From positions 1-50,087 of the forward strand of contig PLUL01000046.1 in the NCBI GenBank assembly GCA_003164895.1: a DNA stretch of 50,087 nucleotides, in the 5' to 3' direction. Under the pieces are notes generated by a model. That model saw nothing but the letters and a program-made list of their open reading frames with translations, did not search any database and was not told the origin of the DNA. The position numbers and the translations under genes are program-made. Positions 31,296 to 33,042 of the stretch are shown here, piece by piece. Source of the stretch: Bacteroidota bacterium. Its GTDB lineage: Bacteria > Bacteroidota > Bacteroidia > Palsa-948. Positions within the stretch are counted from its first letter, which is position 1. The number at the start of each line of letters is the position of its first letter.

Positions 31296-31952
31296 ATGAA
31301 ATTTTTCATAGACACCGCAAACCTCGAACAAATTAAAGAAGCACAGGCGCTTGGCGTGCTTGATGGCGTAACCACCAATCCTTCGCTGATGGCAAAAGAA
31401 GGAATCAAAGGAGAAAAAAATATTATCCAACATTATATTGATATCTGCAATGCAGTTACCGGTGATGTGAGCGCAGAAGTCATTGCCACCGATTACGAAG
31501 GAATTATTAAAGAAGGAGAAGCACTTGCAAAACTTCACAAACAAATTGTGGTGAAAGTGCCGATGATAAAAGATGGCATCAAAGCAATAAAATATTTTTC
31601 AAACAAAGGAATCAAAACAAATTGTACGCTGGTTTTCTCTGCCGGACAGGCATTACTAGCTGCAAAAGCCGGAGCCACTTATGTTTCTCCTTTCATCGGA
31701 AGATTGGACGATGTTTCAACCGATGGAGTTTCGCTTATTGCACAGATCCGTTTGATCTACGACAACTACGGATATAAAACACAAATACTTGCTGCTTCTG
31801 TCCGCCACGTGATGCACATTGTTCAGTGCGCTGAAGTGGGCGCCGATGTTGCAACTTGTCCGCTGAGTGCCATCATGGGTTTGCTCAAACATCCGCTTAC
31901 AGATAATGGTCTTGCACAGTTTCTTGCGGATCACAAAAAAGTGAATGGATAA
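31296..31952 (+). CDS. Transaldolase / fructose-6-phosphate aldolase (TalC/FSA family)
   Basis: 218 residues, exactly the length of the short TalC/FSA family. The ATG at 31296 gives [13 protein letters not shown], the family start. TTNPSL (27-31 region), the Schiff-base Lys K87 in VVKVPM, and SPFIGRLDD are conserved. It moves dihydroxyacetone units between sugar phosphates in the non-oxidative pentose phosphate pathway. The split transketolase at 45601/47921 supplies the partner activity in the same window. Whether it is a true transaldolase or an aldolase cannot be settled from motifs alone. Confidence 0.93.
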
Positions 31953-31955
31953 TTC

Positions 31956-31993
31956 TAAAAAGAAAAATCCCGACAAAATAAATTGCCGGGATT
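31956..31993 (-). terminator. Second leftward terminator in the transaldolase-micropeptide gap
   Basis: AATCCCG at 31966-31972 pairs with CGGGATT at 31987-31993; the stem extends three more pairs (CAA/TTG) past a mismatch. On the minus strand it is followed by TTTTTCTTTTT. It may also serve the rightward transaldolase transcript, though no T run follows on that side. Confidence 0.6.
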
Positions 31994-32000
31994 AGAATAT

Positions 32001-32022
32001 TAAAAAACACCTTTCGGTGTTT
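32001..32022 (-). terminator. Rho-independent terminator of the lysine-rich micropeptide gene
   Basis: On the minus strand AAACACC-GAAA-GGTGTTT forms a 7-base stem with a stable GAAA tetraloop, followed by a T run. It begins 5 bases past the micropeptide stop. Confidence 0.8.
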
Positions 32023-32027
32023 CCTCA

Positions 32028-32099
32028 TTATCTTTTTTTCTTTGCAGCAGCTTTCTTTTTCTTAGGAGCTGCTTTCTTTTTTGTTGCTTTCTTAGCCAT
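32028..32099 (-). CDS. 23-residue lysine/alanine-rich micropeptide (histone H1-tail-like)
   Basis: An ATG at 32099 opens a 23-codon frame ending TAA at 32028. The product starts MAKKATKKKAAPKKKK and ends AAAKKKR; it contains only M, A, K, T, P and R, with about 14 basic residues. This composition is that of histone H1/Hc1-like tails and AT-hook-free DNA condensers. Alternating AAG and AAA for Lys, and mixed Ala codons, argue against a simple DNA repeat. A clean terminator follows 5 bases past the stop. The gene is isolated, divergent from the BtuF-like gene. DNA or RNA binding is inference from charge. Alternatives: a ribosome-associated basic peptide, or a remnant of a longer histone-like gene. 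Confidence 0.7.
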   Translation of the reverse strand: MAKKATKKKAAPKKKKAAAKKKR

Positions 32100-32125
32100 G
32101 GTATTTATTTTTAAAATTGATTATG

Positions 32126-32139
32126 TACGAAGTACGGTA
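32126..32139 (+). repeat. TACGAAG/TACGGTA repeat upstream of the micropeptide gene
   Basis: Two 7-base units with a TACG core, overlapping a small inverted repeat GTAC-GAA-GTAC (32125-32135). It could be regulatory for the leftward micropeptide gene or another member of the TACGAA repeats at 22419 and 29253. Confidence 0.4.
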
Positions 32140-32244
32140 AAATTTTTCAACTAATTACATTTAAACAACTATATCTTTTCAACAAAGAATTGTGTGTATG
32201 ACAAAATATTTTTCATTTGTTATTTGTAAATTCGCATTTACTCT

Positions 32245-33042
32245 ATGAAAATCACAGATCAACTCGGCAACACAATTTCTCTTTCAGGTTTCCCGAAGAA
32301 AATTATTTCCATTGTTCCCTCTCAAACAGAATTACTTTTCGATTTAGGATTGGATGAAGAAATCATTGGCATCACAAAATATTGCGTTCATCCGAAACAC
32401 TGGCAGGAATCAAAAACAAAAATTGGCGGAACAAAAAAATTAAATGTTGAAAAAATAAAAGAACTTCATCCGGATATTATTATCGGTAACAAAGAGGAAA
32501 ATGAAAAAAATCAGGTCGAAGAACTGATGAAATATTTTCCAGTGTGGATGAGCGATATTAAAACTTTGGAAGATGCTCTTAACATGATAGATTCCATAGG
32601 GAAAATAACTGACAAAGAAAAAAGTGCACTCAGAATTCAAAATGATATTCGCGAACAGTTCTCGCATTTTAAACTTTCAACTTCCAACCTTAAACTTGAA
32701 CCTAAACGAGTTGCATATTTCATTTGGAAAAAACCTTTCATTTGTTCAGGAGGAAATAATTTTATTGACCATATGCTTTCCATTTGCGGATTTGAAAATG
32801 TTTTCAGAAAAAAAACTTCCCGTTATCCTGAAATAACAATCGAAGAAATCCAACAAGCAAATCCTTCCCTCATTTTTCTTTCTTCCGAACCTTATCCTTT
32901 TCGCAAAAAACATATTGAAGAATTTAAAAACATTTGTCCTACTGCAAAAATTGTTTTAGTGGATGGCGAAATGTTTTCATGGTATGGCAGCCGATTGCTT
33001 TATGCTCCTGCATACTTTGAAAGGTTACTGCAAAATCTTTAG
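32245..33042 (+). CDS. BtuF-like helical-backbone binding protein without signal peptide
   Basis: 265 residues of the class III periplasmic-binding fold: IISIVPSQTELLFDLGLDEEIIGITKYC at the start, HPDIIIGNKEEN, and the second lobe FICSGGNNFIDHMLSICGFENVF with YPEITIEEIQQANPSLIFLSSEPYPF. Relatives bind cobalamin or iron chelates for ABC importers. This protein starts directly with the folded domain and has no signal peptide or lipobox, so it is probably cytosolic, and no importer genes are adjacent. A cobalamin-sensing or unrelated ligand role is possible. Residues about 142-151 (KLSTSNLKLE) are encoded by a heptamer array between the two lobes. Confidence 0.85.
   Translation: MKITDQLGNTISLSGFPKKIISIVPSQTELLFDLGLDEEIIGITKYCVHPKHWQESKTKIGGTKKLNVEKIKELHPDIIIGNKEENEKNQVEELMKYFPVWMSDIKTLEDALNMIDSIGKITDKEKSALRIQNDIREQFSHFKLSTSNLKLEPKRVAYFIWKKPFICSGGNNFIDHMLSICGFENVFRKKTSRYPEITIEEIQQANPSLIFLSSEPYPFRKKHIEEFKNICPTAKIVLVDGEMFSWYGSRLLYAPAYFERLLQNL
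32670..32697 (+). repeat. Heptamer array TAAACTT-type x4 inside the BtuF-like gene
   Basis: Units TAAACTT, TCAACTT, CCAACCT, TAAACTT in exact 7-base phase, encoding FKLSTSNLKL between the helical backbone and the second lobe. Confidence 0.8.

Follow-up and report, generated by a model that had tools for sequence, protein, structure and literature searches.

A conserved 23-codon lysine- and alanine-rich gene of Bacteroidota whose product resembles a free-standing histone H1-like tail

The chlamydial protein Hc2 and the Bordetella protein BpH1 are lysine-rich and vary in length through repeats, and Hc2 binds DNA (PMC2848022). In Pseudomonas, the DNA-binding protein AlgP ends in an H1-like C-terminus of KPAA repeats that is needed for the spacing of polyphosphate granules (PMC9239181). 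Another example is SWIB-4 of plant plastids, in which an H1 motif lies beside the SWIB domain; it has been found to bind DNA, to compact nucleoids and to complement an E. coli hns mutant, where it replaces H-NS (PMC4154389). The gene described here is a very small form of the known H1-like, lysine- and alanine-rich proteins; it occurs in many genomes of uncultured Bacteroidota, and we propose a function for it. In the open-licence PMC literature, no description of such a free-standing Bacteroidota peptide was found.

The gene lies on contig PLUL01000046.1 of the Bacteroidota assembly GCA_003164895.1, within the stretch of 50,087 nucleotides that was analysed as a whole and is called the window below. 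The locus is composed of the following features.

31296..31952, plus strand: convergent neighbour talC, fructose-6-phosphate aldolase / transaldolase (TIGR00875, over cut-off)
31966..31993, minus strand: second terminator hairpin, the stronger of the two (-15.7 kcal/mol), followed by a T-rich tail
32005..32022, minus strand: first terminator hairpin, AAACACC-GAAA-GGTGTTT, moderate (-9.5 kcal/mol), beginning 5 nt downstream of the stop
32028..32099, minus strand: micropeptide gene MAKKATKKKAAPKKKKAAAKKKR, 23 codons plus stop, with protein-level selection and relatives
32100..32112, minus strand: A-rich leader before the start codon, with A at -3, -6, -12 and -13
32128..32134, minus strand: -7-like promoter box TACTTCG (consensus in relatives TTACTTCGTATCA)
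32181..32194, minus strand: copy of the upstream dyad, CACA-ATTCTT-TGTT, with one mismatch, at the 60-nt distance from the -7 box that relatives also show
32245..33042, plus strand: divergent neighbour, a helical-backbone metal receptor, BtuF-like (NF038402, over cut-off; PF01497)

The frame begins with an ATG at 32099 and ends with a TAA stop at 32030-32028. An earlier note on this DNA had described a frame at 32028-32099 whose residues are all M, A, K, T, P or R, and its coordinates, strand and composition are correct; the basic residues, given there as about 14, number 13 of 23 (12 Lys and 1 Arg), the others being 7 Ala, 1 Met, 1 Thr and 1 Pro. The predicted pI of the 23-mer is 11.6 and its charge about +12. 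It is the sole frame in the whole window with at least 18 codons, at least 45% K+R and at least 90% of residues drawn from KRAPTMSVG, and order-1 Markov copies of the window (n = 100) contained no frame of this kind. Conservation across families is far stronger evidence for a gene than composition, and together with the absence from the 100 copies it rules out a chance frame.

A DNA search of 60 related genomes found the gene in three further genomes of the genus (G001, G003 and G005), flanked by talC and the BtuF-like gene, and four of the seven genus genomes, the window's own included, carry it at this site. In the remaining three (G002, G004 and G006), talC and btuF are joined through short unrelated spacers, and neither a start pattern nor the leader model revealed a convincing copy elsewhere in these genomes; a genus match on contig C4 of G004 is a short K/R start within another frame and not the gene. 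Being absent from three of seven members, the gene is not essential. By BtuF identity, the gene-less G004 (74%) and G006 (71%) are closer to the window than the carrier G003 (60%), which makes loss a likelier explanation of this patchy distribution than one recent gain.

Outside the genus, the DNA search retrieved other families with frames of 25-85 codons that start with MAKK or MATK behind a conserved leader. A sequence-only model built from 13 leaders, named R1, was then searched against 395 genomes of the class, and all 67 matches at E<=1.3e-5 were read. Free-standing K/A frames account for 62 of them, one being cut by the end of its contig (L119); two are SWIB genes with a K/A tail (L022, L127), and three are without such a frame (L126, L129 and L108, which a contig end truncates). 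The carriers are 62 of the 395 class genomes sampled, belong to 13 families and agree in start, leader and layout. R1 was also run on 395 genomes sampled across the phylum, in whose list the class members belong to families without the gene, and at E<=1e-5 it matched the own genome alone. The exact leader-plus-start pattern occurs in 73 stretches of a public genome collection, 72 of which are titled as MAGs, and this pattern, which recovers 36 of the 64 known loci, misses many. One of its occurrences (L211) is near the end of a contig labelled Candidatus Saccharibacteria, which is probably a mis-binned Bacteroidota contig.

Several candidates were discarded on reading. The DNA-search matches L024, L025 and L029-L031 hold no such gene, and at L024 and L029 they are the start of another small protein. 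Longer K/A or THX-like frames (L014-L017, L023 and L026-L028) were dropped, as both their leader and their neighbours are different; those at L014 and L015 (in G055 and G009) are 68-aa K/A frames of another family. At L108 and L117 (contigs C50 and C57 of G363) and at L119, contigs break exactly at the K/A gene, and repeats within the gene probably split assemblies and hide copies.

The coding frame itself is under constraint. In three pairs of 23-codon genus copies, pS was 0.29, 0.29 and 0.43 against pN of 0.04, 0.05 and 0.04, and in three 30-codon pairs of family f45 the values were 0.58, 0.11 and 0.47 against 0.03, 0.00 and 0.03. For pairs aligned with gaps, pS and pN depend on the protein alignment. 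The 61 complete frames range from 22 to 147 residues, with a median of 38, and are composed of 46.5% K, 37.2% A and 7.3% P; their lengths change by whole codons. As this composition is constant while length varies, selection acts on charge, composition and start rather than on a fixed length, a pattern to be expected of a product selected for its charge and flexibility. The proposal that the frame is a real gene and not chance is thus upheld by its conservation and by pS far above pN, and the 23-residue K/A-rich frame is a real, protein-conserved gene with its own predicted promoter and terminator.

On the upstream side, the TACTTCG box, which we take to be the -7 element of a Bacteroidota-type promoter, corresponds to a T[AT][CT]TT[CT]G box present in 56 of 62 leaders, mostly 34-38 nt ahead of the start. 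Among 64 start contexts, A is found at -3, -6, -12 and -13 in 62, 62, 60 and 62, respectively, and A at these four positions raises translation in Flavobacterium johnsoniae (PMC6847099). Farther upstream, the dyad AACA-N5-7-TGTT occurs in 55 of 62 copies compared with 16 of 1219 control windows, the R1 matches being in part selected for its presence, and in 48 of the 55 it lies 58-60 nt from the box. At the 12 non-genus loci whose DNA-search matches fall outside the dyad (L006-L013 and L018-L021), it was seen by eye in 11, and the R1 match of the window copy covers 32088-32194. The fixed distance between dyad and box suggests a regulator site, perhaps that of an activator. The own genome gave no sign of a dyad regulon: TYAACA-N6-TGTTRANAA with one mismatch gave 28 matches versus 40 for the reversed control.

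Downstream, both hairpins point leftward. The T run of the first is short, and a standard terminator scan left this hairpin unflagged; the second was flagged by the scan and is present in all four genus members with the gene. The strong terminator reported earlier at 5 bases past the stop is therefore correctly placed, but only moderate in strength, and the second leftward terminator, located earlier at 31956-31993, does exist, with measured bounds of 31966-31993, and is the stronger of the two. A stem-loop with a U-run follows within 70 nt of the stop in 60 of the 61 complete copies, L020 being the one without a convincing terminator, and it begins no more than 5 nt from the stop in 42 of the 60; in the controls, such an element was seen in 30 of 305 shuffles and in none of 61 leader regions. 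The stem sequences vary from family to family and their place is conserved, which indicates that the element acts as a terminator.

The surroundings of the gene differ between the genus and the other families. The usual order outside the genus is rsmB, micropeptide gene, a convergent epimerase gene and a lipoprotein-like gene, and, within about 1.5 kb on each side of the 64 loci, rsmB was counted 21 times, the epimerase 27 times and the lipoprotein-like gene 23 times. The synteny with talC or the BtuF-like gene that had been predicted earlier accordingly holds inside the genus, in the four carriers, and gives way elsewhere to rsmB and the epimerase as usual neighbours. The epimerase belongs to the enolase superfamily and resembles L-Ala-D/L-Glu epimerase or DgcA, falling below the NCBIfam cut-offs and over those of Pfam. 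Its lipoprotein-like neighbour (L008:791-1327 and relatives) forms a family that is conserved across families and has no Pfam or NCBIfam match. In all 21 rsmB loci, the rsmB-like 16S rRNA methyltransferase gene precedes the micropeptide gene on the same strand, at a distance of 137-486 nt; given this gap and a promoter and terminator of the micropeptide gene's own, the two do not form an operon. All seven genus genomes keep the epimerase and the adjoining lipoprotein-like gene, with no micropeptide gene there, so the gene has moved, to the talC-btuF site, or been lost. Relocation that preserves both leader and terminator is in keeping with a self-contained unit.

Tails that look much like the micropeptide are found on SWIB-domain proteins. 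An N-terminal MAKK/MATK K/A tail of this kind was present in all 13 SWIB proteins of the class that were read, out of 54 SWIB matches listed and not as a random sample, and in the own genome two of three SWIB proteins were read and have a short basic start alone. The free peptide of G177 and the tail of its SWIB protein share the start MAKKATKKKAAPKKK. Micropeptide and SWIB genes occur together in 21 genomes, with 7.8 expected (hypergeometric 1.2e-6, uncorrected for phylogeny). Within the genus, SWIB copies number 3, 2, 2 and 1 in genomes with the micropeptide, the last being 78% complete, and 1, 1 and 1 in those without. The three SWIB genes of the own genome (L131, L138 and G000:C50:63758-63976) are more than any genus member without the micropeptide has. 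Inspection of the sequence ahead of nine SWIB genes revealed no AACA-N5-7-TGTT dyad, and one SWIB leader (L227) carries a dyad of similar form whose spacer is 3 nt long.

A possible mechanism can be drawn from these features. The micropeptide gene would be a free-standing, monocistronic unit with a Bacteroidota-type promoter and a leader tuned for strong translation, in which the upstream dyad would serve as an operator- or activator-like site and one or two terminators would end the transcript right after the stop. The product may be a disordered polycation, equivalent to the C-terminal tail of H1 without a folded domain, which would bind the phosphate backbone of DNA without sequence specificity, neutralise its charge and help to compact the nucleoid, probably alongside the SWIB proteins with tails of this type. 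That the gene is transcribed and translated, and that its product binds and compacts DNA, are predictions from sequence here, and we consider the chances about even that the micropeptide is a polycation resembling a free H1 tail, which coats DNA and condenses it. The roles put forward in the earlier note, condensing DNA or binding rRNA, are reasonable as proposals. The broader proposal of a clade-wide, unannotated family of "micro-histones", starting at 22 residues, encoded in their own regulated units and acting in trans with like-tailed SWIB proteins, is tentative and well short of an even chance.

The main rival is a ribosomal or RNA partner, in which a small basic protein would bind rRNA or mRNA like a detached tail of a ribosomal protein. 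It points to the ribosomal protein THX, which in six of the seven genus genomes (L044-L049) is extended from about 26 to 140-173 residues by a long C-terminal tail rich in K, A and P, to a locus (L021:1413-2007, reverse-complemented) where a THX gene with a K/A tail is directly preceded on its strand by a 72-aa K/A frame, and to the rsmB-like gene that precedes the micropeptide in a third of the loci. A functional or evolutionary link between the L021 frame and THX is possible, and set against the H1-like, DNA-condensing role these K/A tails make RNA a possible partner as well. However, rsmB is too distant for an operon, as described above, the search of PDB chains with phmmer, which performs poorly on such a sequence, gave no match, and the own genome has a separate THX gene while the micropeptide is without the MGKGD start, so the peptide is not THX itself; taken together, we regard this alternative as unlikely, though serious. 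More doubtful still is a partnership with polyphosphate or another polyanion, in which the peptide would decorate granules or tie them to the nucleoid in the manner of AlgP. The composition is similar to that of the AlgP C-terminus, whose role in granule spacing was mentioned above, but the repeat domain of AlgP measures 154 aa and sits on a larger protein, 23 residues are short for bridging, and inspection by eye of the neighbours at 16 loci, with a minority of these neighbours scanned against family libraries, showed no polyphosphate gene.

Two explanations that dispense with a working peptide can also be weighed. A decaying fragment, left from a truncated SWIB or THX tail and retained by chance, would agree with the very similar SWIB tails, including the start shared in G177, and with the loss of the gene in three of seven genus members; the purifying selection, the retention across 13 families and the dedicated promoter with a dyad that the nine SWIB genes lacked make it highly improbable. 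A structured small RNA with an incidental frame is the least credible reading. It draws on the 206-nt transcript region, which folds better than shuffles (z -4.6), mostly owing to the two terminator hairpins, and it is opposed by the codon-position pattern, by pS well above pN, by length changes in whole codons, and by the lack of any match to Rfam covariance models at gathering scores across the whole window. The earlier note had named conserved hairpins with an unconserved frame as the sign of such an RNA, and the opposite was found, with the frame kept and the hairpins kept by position only.

Should the DNA-condensing reading be right, few known chromatin proteins would be as small as this peptide. 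It would amount to a minimal H1 tail of natural origin, with which one could test directly to what extent a disordered, charged tail can organise a bacterial chromosome in the absence of any folded domain. If the micro-histone reading is true, the cell would be able to add DNA-condensing charge separately from a folded protein. Genes so short fall under the usual minimum length of gene callers, which is about 90 nt for Prodigal, and trypsin digestion for mass spectrometry breaks their lysine-rich peptides into small pieces; for both reasons a conserved family could be missing from the annotations of a large, uncultured section of the Bacteroidota.

Comparison with known families places the micropeptide outside each of them by the tests made: it is not a member of Hc1, Hc2, THX, SWIB or linker H1. 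Five family members had no Pfam match at E<=1, hmmscan being weak for low-complexity queries of 23-53 aa. The H1-like families Hc1 and Hc2 are present in Pfam, and their models gave no match among these five, with the same weakness of hmmscan on such queries. In a Pfam scan of the 23 residues, the SWIB domain (PF02201), for which the genome has separate genes, and the globular winged-helix domain of linker histone H1 are both absent, and the bTHX model TIGR04560 did not match. The search for a known family yielded a single NCBIfam line, a valine-tRNA ligase tail at E 0.95 in one relative, which reflects composition, and no Pfam or PDB match.

In kind, the micropeptide is nevertheless close to these systems. 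The micropeptide family, like Hc2 and BpH1, consists of lysine-rich proteins, here Lys/Ala-rich, that vary in length through repeats; those two measure 149-237 residues, whereas the family spans 22-147 (median 38, 23 in the window copy) and has no known link to a developmental cycle. bTHX is likewise tiny and basic and bears K/A tails in this genus, but has a different start and a conserved core and is encoded separately in the own genome. With AlgP, the micropeptide shares the H1-tail-like composition of the KPAA repeats; AlgP is much longer, owing to its repeat domain, and is linked to polyphosphate granules. SWIB proteins of the class have an N-terminal tail that resembles the micropeptide together with a SWIB domain, while the micropeptide is the tail alone, with a gene and a promoter to itself. 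Low-complexity sequence converges easily, so likeness to H1 or SWIB tails does not amount to homology. The earlier likening to a bare H1 tail is apt, given the K/A/P composition of the 61 relatives and the like tail on SWIB proteins, and, as far as sequence can say, the micropeptide works like the tails of the proteins compared here.
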